Source: Guptibacillus hwajinpoensis
Lineage (GTDB): Bacteria; Bacillota; Bacilli; Bacillales; Guptibacillaceae
Assembly: GCF_001039475.1 (NCBI RefSeq)
Contig: NZ_LELK01000015.1
Span: 1 to 64,000, forward strand
Direction of reading: 5' to 3'
DNA: 64,000 bases
The translations under genes were made by a program, and so were the position numbers. Position 1 is the stretch's first letter, and each line of letters opens with the position of its first letter. The notes beneath the pieces were generated by a model. It made no database searches. It saw only the letters and a list, made by a program, of their open reading frames with translations, and was not told where the DNA came from. Positions 401 to 41,153 of the stretch are shown here, in pieces.

Positions 401-436
401 ATGGTTATAAATAATAAACGCTCTTTTCAAAAGAGA

Positions 437-486
437 TCGCGGATATAATCTCAAAATCGCGGATATATCCAGAAAAACGGGGATAT
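437..486. repeat. 20-bp-period repeat array, three units
   Basis: The core TCGCGGATAT begins at 437 and 457, and a decayed core ACGGGGATAT begins at 477, giving exact 20-bp spacing. The 10 bases between cores are A/T-rich and not conserved. A single further core lies at 794, downstream of the intact 5S, within a shared flank (AAACGCTC..TTTCAAAAG). The same core makes a five-unit array at 24833. Confidence 0.75.
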
Positions 487-597
487 ATCGAAAATAGTTT
501 TCAGGGAATAAAATTTTCCTTGAACTTCATAAAGAAGTATAGTAAGATATATCTTGTCCTTGGTTAAACACTTTCTAGTGGATCAACCATTGATTAG

Positions 598-755: not shown

Positions 756-942
756 GTATGGTTTTAACTAACAAACGCTCCTTTCAAAAGAAATCGCGGA
801 TAAATGGTCAATAAGGTTCACCCCAGACCACCGCCAGAGCCTCAACCTGTCTTAAACAACTATAAAAAATTACAATAAAAGTCCACTCATGGAATATCAC
901 TCACCTTTATTACAAAAAATAAATATAAAGGTGGTTATACAC

Positions 943-2628: not shown

Positions 2629-4331
2629 GTTTTGAACTTTCTAGAAAAGCGTATTCTGACATGTTTGGGCCAACTGTTGGAGACCAAGTGCGATTAGCTG
2701 ATACAGATTTATTTATTGAAGTTGAAAGAGATCACTCAACATATGGTGATGAAGTTAAGTTTGGCGGCGGTAAGGTTATCAGAGATGGAATGGGCCAGCA
2801 CCCACTTGCAACTCGAAAAGATTCAGTTGATCTTGTAGTAACGAATGCGCTAATCGTAGATTATACAGGGATATATAAGGCAGATATTGGAGTGAGGGAT
2901 GGTCGGATAGCATCAATAGGGAAAGCAGGAAACCCTTATTTGATGGACAATATTGATATTGTTATTGGTGCTTCTACTGAAGTCATTGCAGCAGAGGGCA
3001 TGATTGTAACGGCTGGTGGTATCGACTCGCATATTCACTTTATCTGTCCGCAACTTATCCAAACAGCTATTGAATCAGGTATTACAACCATGTTAGGTGG
3101 TGGGACAGGTCCAGCAACAGGTACAAACGCTACGACATGTACGCCGGGTGAGTGGAATATTCATCGGATGCTTGAATCGGCAGAGGCGTTTCCCGTTAAC
3201 CTTGGTTTTCTTGGTAAAGGGAATGCGTCTTCACAAGAAGCATTGAATGAGCAAATCGAGGCCGGGGCAATTGGTTTGAAGCTTCACGAGGATTGGGGGA
3301 CCACGGCAGCTTCTATTGATACTGCTTTAACTGTTGCAGATCAATATGATGTTCAGGTTGCGATTCATACGGATACATTAAACGAAGGCGGGTTTGTGGA
3401 AGATACTCTTAACGCCATTGATGGTCGCGTGATCCATACCTATCATACAGAAGGTGCTGGTGGTGGACATGCACCAGATATTATTAAAGCTGCTTCCTAT
3501 TCGCACATCCTACCATCTTCTACGAACCCAACAAGACCTTTTACGACGAATACGATTGCAGAGCATTTAGATATGCTGATGGTTTGTCATCACCTTGATT
3601 CCTCAGTTCCTGAAGATGTGGCTTTTGCAGACTCACGAATACGCAAAGAGACGATAGCGGCGGAAGATATCCTGCATGACATGGGAGTATTCAGTATTAT
3701 TAGCTCGGATTCTCAGGCAATGGGACGTGTTGGAGAAGTCATTTCAAGAACGTGGCAGACCGCTGATAAAATGAAGAAGCAGCGTGGACCTTTACCGGAG
3801 CATGCTCAGAATGACAATGAACGAGTGAAAAGATATATTGCTAAATACACAATTAATCCAGCAATTGCTCATGGGATTTCAGAAGAAGTAGGATCGATAG
3901 AAGTAGGGAAATTAGCAGATTTGGTGTTATGGAAACCGGCCTTTTTTGGGGTGAAGCCAGAGCAGGTTGTAAAAGGTGGGATGATTGCATGGAGTGTGAT
4001 GGGAGACCCCAATGCATCAATACCGACGCCACAACCAGCTTTATACAGACCGATGTTTGGACAGTATGGGAAAGCAAAATCTCAAACGGCAGTTACCTTT
4101 TTATCACAAGCAGCTATTGAAAGAGGCGTTCATGAGAAGTTGGGTCTACAAAAAATCATCAAATCTGTTCATAATATCCGGAACCTTACAAAGAAGGATA
4201 TGAAATATAACGGCGAAACGCCGGACATTCAAGTTGATCCACAAACGTACGAGGTACTAGTTGATGGAGAATTAATCACATGTGAACCGGCTACTAGTGT
4301 ACCACTTGCACAACGATACTTTTTATTTTGA
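2625..4331 (+). CDS. ureC: Urease alpha subunit (catalytic)
   Basis: This is the catalytic subunit holding two nickel ions. All active-site residues are visible: His136 and His138 (SHIHF), the lysine carbamylated to bridge the nickels (Lys219, GLKLHEDWG), His248 (AIHTD), His274 in [12 protein letters not shown], the mobile-flap Cys321-His322, and Asp362 (SSDSQAMGR). Length 568 is normal for the separate-subunit type found in Bacillus. It overlaps ureB by 4 bases. Nothing in the sequence suggests inactivation. Confidence 0.97.
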
Positions 4332-24795: not shown

Positions 24796-24832
24796 TGGAG
24801 AAAAGTGCTGATCATCTGTCACTTTTGACATT

Positions 24833-24923
24833 TCGCGGATATATTTCTATTTTCGCGGATATAACCTTTGATTTCGCGGATAAAATTATATTATCGCGGA
24901 TATATTCGGAAAATCGCGGATAT
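24833..24923. repeat. 20-bp-period repeat array, five TCGCGGATA units
   Basis: The core TCGCGGATA begins at 24833, 24853, 24874, 24894 and 24914, so the spacings are 20, 21, 20 and 20. The roughly 10-base linkers are A/T-rich and differ from one another. Two palindromic repeats follow directly. The array starts 38 bases after the yerC terminator. The same core appears at 437, 457 and 794. Confidence 0.85.
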
Positions 24924-24970
24924 GATGTGATTTTGGGGCTCTGGTTCTTGGCGGGGGCTGAACGATCGCT

Positions 24971-25221
24971 TCGCTTTTCGTTGATCCAGCTGCAGTGGGC
25001 AGACTCTCGGTCACTTCACCCTAGACTCTGAACACAAAAGGCGTGTTCAAATTCTAGGGCTCCAGTGCCTGACGAGTCTAAACGCCCACTTCCGCTTTTC
25101 GTGATCTAGCTGCAGCCTCCAGACCCTCGGTCACTTCGCTATCCAACTGGAACACAAAGGGCGTGTTCAAGTTGAATAGCTCCAGTGCCTGTCGGGTCTA
25201 AACGGAGGCTTCCGCTTTTCG
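24971..25221. repeat. Tandem pair of 120-bp palindromic elements
   Basis: Two copies in direct repeat have an exact 120-base offset (AGCTGCAG at 24988 and 25108). Each begins and ends with CGCTTTTCG and folds into a nested hairpin. The arms differ between copies but keep pairing: GTGGGC/GCCCAC (24995/25084) against GCCTCC/GGAGGC (25115/25204); AGACTC/GAGTCT against AGACCC/GGGTCT; CCCTAGA/TCTAGGG against CTATCCAACT/AGTTGAATAG. The apical GAACAC-AAAGGC-GTGTTC is constant. No frame is conserved across the copies. Confidence 0.85.
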
Positions 25222-25230
25222 TGTATTCTT

Positions 25231-38555: not shown

Positions 38556-39500
38556 ATGAAACGTGCAAGACTGATCTATAATCCAACGTCCGGAAGAGAA
38601 CAGGTAAAGAGGTCACTGCCTTATATTCTTGAACGTCTTGAGGTAAATGGATACGAAACGTCAGCTCATGCGACTACGTGTGAAGGGGATGCAACAGAGG
38701 CGGCTCGTATTGCCGTTGAGCGAAAGTTTGATCTCGTTATTGCTGCTGGGGGAGACGGAACCATTTATGAAGTGATTAACGGAATTGCTGAGCAGCCGTA
38801 TCGCCCCAAAATGGGAATTATTCCAGTTGGAACAACGAATGATTTCGCGCGTGCGATTGGTGTTCCACGCACTGTTGAAGGTGCAATGGATGTCCTGTGC
38901 AATGGCCTTGAAATGCCAATTGATATTGGTCGGGTAAATGAACATTACTTTATCAATATTGCAGGTGGCGGACGGTTGACTGAATTAACGTATGAAGTAC
39001 CAAGCAAGCTTAAAACAATGCTTGGCCAACTTGCTTACTATATGAAAGGAATCGAGATGCTGCCATCCATTCGGCCTACTAAGACACGAATTGAATATGA
39101 TGGAAAACTTTTTGAAGATGAGATCATGCTTTTCCTCGTCTCAAACTCGAACTCAATCGGTGGATTTGAGAAGCTAGCACCACATGCTTCATTGAATGAT
39201 GGACTATTCGATCTTATGATATTGAAAAAAACCAATATCGCTGAATTCATTCGCATTGCAAGCAGTGCTCTACGCGGTGATCATATTAAGGATCCGAACG
39301 TTATTTACAAGAAAGCAAGTCACATTCGAGTAGAATCAGTTGATAAAATGCAACTTAACCTTGACGGTGAGTACGGTGGTCCACTTCCTGCGGAGTTTAC
39401 GAACTTATATCGCCATATTACGATGATCGTTCCAAAAGAAACGAGCGAGAAACATACAAACGAAGAAGAAGCAGCGCAGCGTGCTGCTTCTGGTGAGTAG
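38556..39500 (+). CDS. dagK: Diacylglycerol/lipid kinase (DgkB-like)
   Basis: DgkB phosphorylates diacylglycerol so that it re-enters phospholipid synthesis after lipoteichoic acid assembly. YNPTSGRE (9-16), the nucleotide loop AAGGDGTIYEV (63-73), GTTNDFARA and LNLDGE near the end match the DAGK catalytic domain. At 314 residues it is slightly longer than the B. subtilis enzyme, with an acidic tail (HTNEEEAAQRA). It lies between gatB and rlmCD as yerQ does in B. subtilis, with the yerO-swrC genes missing. Confidence 0.92.
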   Translation: MKRARLIYNPTSGREQVKRSLPYILERLEVNGYETSAHATTCEGDATEAARIAVERKFDLVIAAGGDGTIYEVINGIAEQPYRPKMGIIPVGTTNDFARAIGVPRTVEGAMDVLCNGLEMPIDIGRVNEHYFINIAGGGRLTELTYEVPSKLKTMLGQLAYYMKGIEMLPSIRPTKTRIEYDGKLFEDEIMLFLVSNSNSIGGFEKLAPHASLNDGLFDLMILKKTNIAEFIRIASSALRGDHIKDPNVIYKKASHIRVESVDKMQLNLDGEYGGPLPAEFTNLYRHITMIVPKETSEKHTNEEEAAQRAASGE

Positions 39501-39513
39501 TAACGTTGAGAGA

Positions 39514-39543
39514 AGCCGGAGATTTTTTGATCTCTGGCTTTTT
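39514..39543 (+). terminator. Terminator of dagK
   Basis: AGCCGGAGAT and ATCTCTGGCT pair with one G-U pair and end in a T run. The 3' arm CTCTGGCTTTTT is identical to that of the 5S terminators, although the rest differs. Confidence 0.82.
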
Positions 39544-39560
39544 CTATTGCTGATCGCTTT

Positions 39561-39650
39561 TGGCTAATATAATGAAAATTTAGCTAATAAATCTTTGATT
39601 TGGACAATATATCGAGAATTTAGCCAATATAGTAGAAATTTGGACAATAA
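39561..39650. repeat. 20-bp-period repeat array, five units with varying core
   Basis: Cores begin at 39561 (TGGCTAATAT), 39581 (TAGCTAATAA), 39601 (TGGACAATAT), 39621 (TAGCCAATAT) and 39641 (TGGACAATAA), so every spacing is exactly 20. The linkers are A/T-rich and end mostly in ATT. The frame T-NNNNN-ATA is the same as in the TCGCGGATA arrays at 437 and 24833; only the 5-nt core changes. It starts 18 bases after the dagK terminator. Confidence 0.8.
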
Positions 39651-39779
39651 AATGACTTTCACCTCACCAAGGCGTTAAAAGTCTCCCGATTTTGAAGTGA
39701 TGTTGTTATATTTCGCGATCGAATCACACTGTGGTACAATTTTTGTACATGAAATCGAACGGAAAAGGACGGAAATCAA

Positions 39780-41153
39780 ATGAGTATTCAAGATATACCT
39801 GTAAAAAAGAACGATGTTGTGGAAGTGGAGTTTGTTGATATCTCACATGACGGCGCTGGTGTCGCTAAAGTAGACGGCTACACCTTGTTCGTGCCCTATG
39901 GTATACCAGGCGAAACAGCTGATGTAAAAGTAATTAAAACGAAAAAAGGATTTGGTTTCGGCAAACTCGTTGATGTCAAAGTTGAGAGTGAAGATCGCAA
40001 TACGCCTCCGTGTCCGATCTTCTATCAGTGTGGAGGCTGCCAAACACAGCACATTACGTACGATAGCCAACTGAGGTTCAAGCACAAGCAGGTTCAAGAC
40101 GTGATGGAGCGCATCGCGAAGATAGATGTACCTGTTCACCCTGTCCTAGGTATGGAAGACCCATGGCGCTACCGTAACAAAGCACAGGTTCCTGTTGGAG
40201 AAGAGAATGGCAAGATTGTTGCCGGCTTCTACCAGCAGCGCAGTCACCAGATTATCGACATGGACCAGTGTCTCATTCAGGAGCAGGAGAACGACGAAGT
40301 TCTTCGCGTCGTAAAAGAGATCGCTGAAAAATACGGCATCCGCGCATACGACGAACGCTCTCATCGTGGAACGCTAAGACACGTTGTTGCGAAATACGGT
40401 AAGCAAACAGACGACATCATGGTCGTTATTGTCACAAAGAACAAAGACTTACCGAATCGAAAACATATCATAAATGACATCACAGAGAAACTTCCGAAAG
40501 TGAAATCAATCGTCCAGAATGTAAATCCCAAACGCACTAACGTGATCTTCGGTGACGAAACACGTGTCCTATGGGGATCTCCATACATTTACGACACAAT
40601 TGGCGACATTAAATTCGCGATTTCAGCGCGCTCGTTCTATCAAGTAAACCCAGATCAAACAAAGGTGCTTTATGACCAGGCACTCGAATATGCTGGACTC
40701 ACAGGTAATGAAACGGTTATCGACGCGTATTGCGGTATCGGAACGATCTCCCTTTTCCTTGCCCAAAAAGCGAAGCAAGTGTACGGCGTAGAAATTGTAC
40801 CAGAAGCGATTGAAGATGCGAAGCGTAATGCCGAGTTAAACGGCATCACAAACGCGGAGTTTGCTGTTGGTGAAGCAGAGAATGTTATTCCAGCGTGGAA
40901 AGAGCAAGGTATCAAGCCAGACGTCATCGTCGTTGATCCGCCACGTAAAGGCTGTGAAGAATCCCTTCTACAAACGATTATTGATATGAAGCCAGAGAAA
41001 GTTGTCTATGTATCATGTAACCCTGCGACACTTGCACGGGATTTACGGATCTTAGAAGATGGTGGATTTAAAACGAAGGAAGTTCAACCGGTTGATATGT
41101 TCCCACATACGACGCACGTTGAGTGTACAGTGTTACTTAAAAAAAGGACATAG
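39780..41153 (+). CDS. rlmCD: 23S rRNA (uracil-C5)-methyltransferase RlmCD
   Basis: This SAM-dependent enzyme makes m5U at two sites of 23S rRNA in B. subtilis (YefA). A TRAM domain covers about residues 8-66. Fe-S ligands Cys78, Cys84 and Cys87 lie in [11 protein letters not shown] with a fourth in MDQCLI. The SAM region is [12 protein letters not shown], and the catalytic Cys lies in [11 protein letters not shown]. At 457 residues it has normal length. Its stop is 1 base from the stop of the opposing recombinase remnant. Confidence 0.95.

Follow-up and report, generated by a model that had tools for sequence, protein, structure and literature searches.

The closest described systems are the 20-21-nt tandem repeats of Bacillus, of which Subirana and Messeguer (2021; PMC8161180) recorded 781 in 176 genomes; the available text describes them as constant in size, variable in sequence and species-specific, with a characteristic short sequence that in B. 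weihaiensis is TCGCGG (their Table 2). The authors proposed a polymerising protein on DNA or small RNAs, and that text gives no function. The same source describes 52-nt Bacillus tandem repeats, also constant in length and variable in sequence, dispersed, species-specific and turned over between strains, which differ from the 20-bp arrays studied here in unit length and in being reported as transcribed. The TAACTGA direct repeats of Beggiatoaceae (MacGregor, 2015; PMC4679880) are, on the part of their description available, a fixed heptamer common to distant phyla and mostly placed just upstream of start codons, whereas the arrays here lie mostly past gene ends and carry a word that varies by lineage. 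The literature searched yielded no paper explaining the 20-21-nt class, and the available text of PMC8625621 and PMC6749651 mentions neither '20-21' nor '21 nt'.

We analysed a window of 64,000 nucleotides from Guptibacillus hwajinpoensis (genome G000), in which a five-unit array with a period of 20 occupies positions 39560-39659 on the forward strand (TTGGCTAATATAATGAAAAT / TTAGCTAATAAATCTTTGAT / TTGGACAATATATCGAGAAT / TTAGCCAATATAGTAGAAAT / TTGGACAATAAAATGACTTT). The initial annotation had placed five elements at 39561, 39581, 39601, 39621 and 39641, in exact 20-base steps and with the cores GGCTA, AGCTA, GGACA, AGCCA and GGACA; positions and cores are both borne out by the sequence, and the array word can be written T-R-G-(CT|CC|AC)-A-ATA. 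The array begins 59 bp past the end of dgkB, a diacylglycerol/lipid kinase gene (38556-39500, forward strand; NF009874 diacylglycerol kinase above cut-off; PF00781), whose protein has its best named relatives in Bacillus sp. NTK071 and P. hwajinpoensis (97%). By eye, a terminator-like hairpin with a T-run (AGCCGGAGAT-TTTTTG-ATCTCTGGCT-TTTT, 39514-39544, forward strand) separates the dgkB stop from the array. An rlmD-like 23S rRNA (uracil-C5)-methyltransferase gene (39780-41153, forward strand; TIGR00479 above cut-off) starts 120 bp past the array.

A second array, with five units of TCGCGGATA in steps of 20, 21, 20 and 20, lies between yerC and pcrB (24832-24933, forward strand), a site where relatives carry other words. 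Two further TCGCGGATA units and a decayed third, ACGGGGATA, stand at about 436-489 (forward strand) between two 5S rRNA-like sequences, and a lone TCGCGGATA at 794-802 (forward strand), after the 5S rRNA gene at 598-714, is probably an array remnant. The window starts with three consecutive 5S rRNA-like sequences or ends (1-55, about 240-358 and 598-714), of which Rfam calls only the last at its gathering threshold; by eye, each is followed by a similar terminator, and an array remnant or single word trails two of the three. A 120-bp unit is present in 2.1 copies at 24972-25223 (CGCTTTTCGTGATCCAGCTGCAG...CTCGGTCACTTC); related units stand beside a number of arrays, both in G000 and in congeners (L018, L028, L242, L252, L253), and make up a further dispersed repeat family of the genus, distinct from the arrays.

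On the published description, the dgkB-rlmD array is a member of the 20-21-nt Bacillus repeats (PMC8161180) by every feature tested. As far as the available text defines it, that class has units of 20-21 nt in at least four copies, is mostly non-coding and comprises several families per genome. Here the step is exactly 20 (20, 21, 20, 20 in the TCGCGGATA array), five units are present, the array is confined to the space from the dgkB stop (39500) to the rlmD start (39780) and has a unit length that is not a multiple of three, and G000 holds both RG..A and CGCGG families, with mostly other words in other genera. A short characteristic sequence is likewise present, RG(CT|CC|AC)A in 52 of 55 units and, as the word of the second array class, the TCGCGG of B. 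weihaiensis. The initial annotation knew of no named element of this kind; the class had been published in 2021, TCGCGG included. The similarity score used by SATFIND/MALIG, the programs of that paper's authors, may be too strict for arrays whose words are short and whose linkers are free. The published work, in the text available, counts repeats and families per genome, whereas here orthologous sites are compared, word and linker rates are separated and word switching is described. The word/linker rate split, the word switching at orthologous sites and the group word shift reported below are new as far as the literature searched extends.

A chance origin of the arrays is ruled out by shuffling and by a reversed-pattern control. 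When the 279-bp intergenic region was dinucleotide-shuffled 5000 times, exact-20 chains reached one unit in 4945 shuffles, two in 55 and three in none, and the mean pairwise identity of the best five consecutive 20-mers was 0.645 in the array compared with at most 0.445 in 2000 shuffles. Genome-wide, the three-unit pattern T-N-G-N3-ATA at exactly 20 gave 36 overlapping matches and its reversed control gave 0, placing the 20-bp periodicity above background, the point on which the earlier claim had been staked. Outside arrays, the single word TRGMYAATA is no more frequent in the window than expected: it matches 8 times, five of them in the array, where 4.4 matches are expected.

The cores do differ between units, as initially described, but they are variants of one degenerate word rather than freely variable: RG(CT|CC|AC)A precedes ATA in 52 of the 55 units detected in the 13 RG-class arrays of this genome, units decayed out of the T-N5-ATA frame being skipped in that count, and the exceptions are GGCAA, GGCTC and GGATA. 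The second class of the genome, TCGCGGATA, keeps CGCGG in 40 of 42 units from nine arrays, a decayed array (L196, CGCGG in 0 of 4 units) being left out. The two classes are never mixed inside one array among the G000 arrays examined. These word-class counts, like the context and anatomy counts below, leave out arrays whose cores were too dissimilar and arrays whose other strand carried simple AT-rich chains. Core classes show no obvious grouping by location, which had been raised initially, and both occur on contigs C7, C9 and C14. The words are not palindromic in general: the RG class admits TTGGCCAA and TTAGCTAA, but the other classes are, by eye, not palindromic. In the congener G003, three intergenic regions (L266, L267, L268) each contain an RG-class array facing an array of the CGCGG or CGCTG class about 20-45 bp away. 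Five RG-class arrays lie within 23 kb in G007 (1213-1240 kb; L247, L248), with a matching cluster in G009 (404-418 kb; L255), a possible local hot spot.

Orthologous arrays allow the rate of change of the word to be set against that of the linker. The search pattern demanded T, ATA and W (positions 1 and 7-10), so that conservation there is biased upwards, and the word was therefore scored at positions 2-6 and 11 only. Across 13 orthologous array pairs from close congeners, these positions differ at 28 of 349 sites (8%), compared with 154 of 521 (30%) at positions 12-20 and 695 of 2893 (24%) in the flanks. Dropping two pairs with badly aligned flanks leaves 11 pairs, with differences of 22/301 (7%) in the word, 129/449 (29%) in the linker and 469/2465 (19%) in the flanks; word and linker substitution differ with p about 7e-14, in a comparison whose mild core-similarity filter also leans slightly towards conservation. 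Within the linker, the last three positions change at about 20% and the preceding six at about one-third. The linkers, which had been called unconserved from the window alone, do diverge at least as fast as the flanks. Copying between arrays would preserve linkers and words alike, so the observed pattern calls for selection on the word. A replication-slippage product, the other origin suggested initially, is not supported, as linkers are unlike between units and drift between orthologous arrays while the words hold.

At orthologous sites, the word class is itself exchanged. A site just downstream of a NERD-domain gene (site A), found in 13 of 14 congeners, carries four different words within one genus: CGCGG-ATA in G000 and G002 (five units each) and in G013 (one unit left), CGCTG/CGCCG-ATA in G003 and G011 (six units), RG..A-ATA in G004, G005 and G009 (five units), and CGCGGA-ATWA in G001, G006, G007, G010 and G012 (four or five units). 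The end of the neighbouring gene also differs in G004, G005 and G009, so the whole element may have been swapped there in one piece instead of changing by single words. Between yerC and pcrB, CGCGGA-TAWA is found in G000, G002 and G013, and CGCGGA-ATWA or AAAA in G001, G004, G007, G009 and G012, with linkers that by eye are recognisably inherited; the array of G005 mixes TAWA and ATWA words, and G003 and G011 have no array. Two genomes of another genus (G040, G216) hold GGATC arrays at this site in inverted orientation relative to G000, G276 has another word with period 21, and a script found no T-N5-ATA array there in most other genera examined. Downstream of yerC in G176 (L310) lies a tandem repeat of period 52 (90% match), where others hold 20-bp arrays; the 20-21-nt and 52-nt classes, as described in the available text of PMC8161180, may substitute for one another at a single site.

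The dgkB site is similarly varied. By eye, the other strand reads T-AAGGA-ATA in Cytobacillus oceanisediminis (L141) and at locus L137, and Cytobacillus praedii (L133) has T-CGCAA-ATA; G033 has T-CGTGC-ATA. A periodicity of at least 0.60 is reached at seven of 80 named loci, three of them in this genus. Among the 14 congeners, six keep five units in register by eye, six have shortened or decayed arrays and two have none, losses which indicate that single arrays are dispensable. Downstream of dgkB in G038 (L112), near-identical period-20 units (97.5% match) carry the word TTTAGGGGTCTTAGC and lack the T-N5-ATA frame, at a place where other genera have T-N5-ATA arrays. Loci L137 (Chryseobacterium sp. 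ISL-80) and L143 (Roseburia sp. 1XD42-34) show Bacillaceae-like dgkB regions (72% and 70% identity) and are probably mislabelled assemblies.

The T-N5-ATA frame is not universal, since one group of congeners uses CGCGGA-ATWA. With three units of CGCGGAWWWW as the pattern and overlapping matches merged, 12 genomes could be counted (G005 and G008 gave no match): a T stands at base 7 in 92 of the 97 units from G000, G002, G003, G011 and G013, but in 14 of the 136 from G001, G004, G006, G007, G009, G010 and G012. These groups were drawn from the words themselves and afterwards placed on the dgkB tree, where the ATWA group needs one change in 200 of 200 bootstrap trees and its branch is weak (support 37/99). 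The most distant pair, G003 and G011, has T, which makes T at base 7 probably ancestral. One species group has shifted from CGCGGA-TAWA to CGCGGA-ATWA, partly with inherited linkers.

Three-unit matches were present in 14/14 Pseudalkalibacillus genomes and in 14 of 67 genomes outside the genus, several of the latter with a single match. Scanning the order for three units of T-N5-ATAWW gave at least one match in 229 of 397 genomes, single matches being near background by the controls. About 40 genomes have at least 20 matches by hand count, most with few control matches; high control counts were seen in G152 (18), G269 (13) and G126 (10), and G289 was left out with 20 matches against 24 in the control. 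Array-poor or array-free species share a genus with array-rich ones; in one genus, for example, G040, G082 and G216 are array-rich and G239 and G113 array-poor. Outside the order, 3 of 140 genomes from the same taxonomic class had a four-unit match, which resembles genuine arrays only in G453 (CGCAA, CGCCA); in G404 the control matched as often as the four-unit pattern. Words in other genera include GGATC, TGATA, CGTAG/CGAAG, CGCTC/CGATC, GGTCG, TGCAA and TCCCC, and RG- and CGCGG-like words recur outside the genus in G024 and G069. A viral or plasmid origin was rejected, as a viral collection of 2.9 million contigs by its own description contains six array stretches and a plasmid collection gave no match to the two arrays used as queries. 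Plasmid-type iterons are defined by a replication initiator that binds them at an origin; the arrays here are scattered across chromosomal contigs. In G007 (dnaA at base 337), none of the 23 arrays found by two array patterns lies in 1.66-3.26 Mb (p 0.0014, for a gap chosen post hoc; p 0.045 after merging arrays less than 30 kb apart, 23 to 14), and the arrays are not significantly displaced on average towards the origin (p 0.15); avoidance of the terminus is suggestive only.

Five units is the commonest length, seen in 46 of 102 arrays from 95 loci, followed by four (28), six (13) and three (12), in a sample fetched by at least three units in register that therefore misses shorter arrays; the period is 20, at times 21. 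The gaps that hold arrays are convergent in 32 cases, codirectional in 56 and divergent in 9, against 10, 68 and 22 for gaps of at least 60 bp without arrays at the same loci (chi-square p about 1e-4; divergent alone p 0.018), counts that rest on crude gene calls (90 aa open frames) and are not independent because orthologous loci are included. An earlier count based on 100-aa open frames comprised 56 cases, of which 18 were convergent, 31 codirectional and 7 divergent. Arrays favour convergent gene ends and are rarer at divergent ones. In codirectional gaps, 32 arrays face with the genes and 25 against them. Nor do the arrays always follow terminators, as had been asked initially: our own simple scan places a terminator-like hairpin before the array in only 50 of 120 gene-end/array pairs, and beyond it in 39 of 120.

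Both strands of two arrays fold no better than shuffles (z 0.01, 0.18, -0.84, -0.27). The REP/BIME elements of enterobacteria are palindromic, hairpin-forming units that occur in many species-specific copies in intergenic regions at gene 3' ends; the arrays resemble them in all these points of distribution, but they are direct repeats and not palindromic, which, with the folding scores, sets REP/BIME aside. The 144 flanking open frames match 254 Pfam families, the commonest in four frames, and none of the best 25 of the 254 is recurrent, so that within this set no cognate gene evidently adjoins the arrays. Defence islands were rejected, as the same frames match only nine scattered PADLOC families. 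A CRISPR array has identical repeats of at least 23 nt, unique spacers and cas genes nearby; here the unit is 20 nt, the word about 11 nt, and none of the nine PADLOC families (1e-10) of the 144 frames is named as a core Cas protein.

We read each array as about five helically phased sites for a putative sequence-specific DNA-binding protein or small protein family, with a probability of roughly 0.55. The spacing is regular, the word constrained and the linker free, word classes are switched at orthologous sites, one species group has shifted its word, and the arrays are indifferent to orientation; two-turn spacing, kept word, free linkers, orientation indifference, scarcity at divergent promoters and the lack of an RNA fold point to DNA read by a protein. 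The suggestion in the initial annotation that spacing is selected, with protein bound on one face of the helix, fits a period of 20, mostly five units, a kept word and orientation indifference. Several results weigh against the binding-site reading: no evident cognate gene among the flanking frames (best 25 of 254 families), the ease with which single arrays are lost, array-poor species beside array-rich ones within a genus, and single words that are not enriched outside arrays in the window. The protein would recognise the word itself and would act on DNA, not RNA; the most likely effect of its binding would be local chromosome structuring or insulation at gene ends. The binding sites would measure about 11 bp each (T-N5-ATAWA in this species), and sites two helix turns apart would put the bound molecules on one side of the DNA, able to touch, mostly past gene ends and not at divergent promoters. 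The specificity of the protein would differ among lineages and among the array classes of one genome, and a change in it would be followed by the array words through substitution, with spacing, copy number and position staying as they were.

The published 20-21-nt repeats have so far been without a function or a handle. Close species groups that differ by a clean word change, and orthologous sites with the word class swapped, form a natural experiment, and which protein reads the repeat, if any, is now directly testable. If the binding-site reading is true, environmental bacteria would possess a system of protein-DNA recognition that spans the genome and evolves fast.

More tentatively, the arrays could be chromosome-wide addresses for a factor whose specificity changes between species, all words of a class following in concert and the arrays keeping their spacing, unit number and place. 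In eukaryotes, fast-changing DNA-binding proteins co-evolve with dispersed sites, as in PRDM9 and centromere repeats, and such concerted addresses would be a bacterial counterpart.

That the arrays are selfish or neutral dispersed repeats, copied without host function and sharing a word through recent copying and conversion, we consider unlikely. In G000 most array pairs do match over the array and not over the flanks; L049/L051 (91% over 1532 bp) and the rRNA-linked L004/L016/L024 depart from this. The genome also contains near-duplicates (L028/L030, 90% over 113 bp), and arrays are often lost or shortened. However, copying or conversion would homogenise linkers together with words, whereas between orthologues the words hold and the linkers change no more slowly than the flanks, and the shift from CGCGGA-TAWA to ATWA is seen in arrays that partly retain their linkers. 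No transposase family recurs among the neighbours (best 25 of 254 families), copies are rare in the virus contigs and the two queried arrays had no plasmid match. The word and linker rates weaken an explanation by copying.

Quite unlikely, too, is DNA shape alone, in which helix-phased AT-rich stretches bend or wrap DNA (gyrase, HU, curvature) and the word matters only loosely. A period of 20-21 bp does equal two helix turns, the unit by eye alternates mixed and AT-rich stretches, and the preference for convergent ends resembles the placement of curved or gyrase-binding repeats in other bacteria. Shape, however, needs no particular five-base word, and exact words are held (CGCGG in 40/42 units in G000) while the AT-rich linkers drift.

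Very unlikely is that the arrays are transcribed and act as RNA, either as small RNAs or as sponges for an RNA-binding protein, a reading that Subirana and Messeguer discuss for Bacillus tandem repeats. In the 70 of 120 gene-end/array pairs with no terminator-like hairpin before the array, transcription could run through into it, and the available text of PMC8161180 reports transcription of the 52-nt repeats of B. coagulans, but orientation relative to codirectional genes is about equal, the yerC-pcrB array is inverted between G000 and G040, neither strand of two arrays gives a folding signal, and helical-turn spacing has no obvious meaning for RNA.

Over the whole window, Rfam at its gathering threshold calls only 5S rRNA, a purine riboswitch and RF02514, and its arrays match no known RNA family at that threshold. 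The RF02514 match (5' ureB small RNA) is full-length, at 2780-3066 on the reverse strand with 115.7 bits, a surprising find in a Bacillus relative for what we take to be a Helicobacter family.
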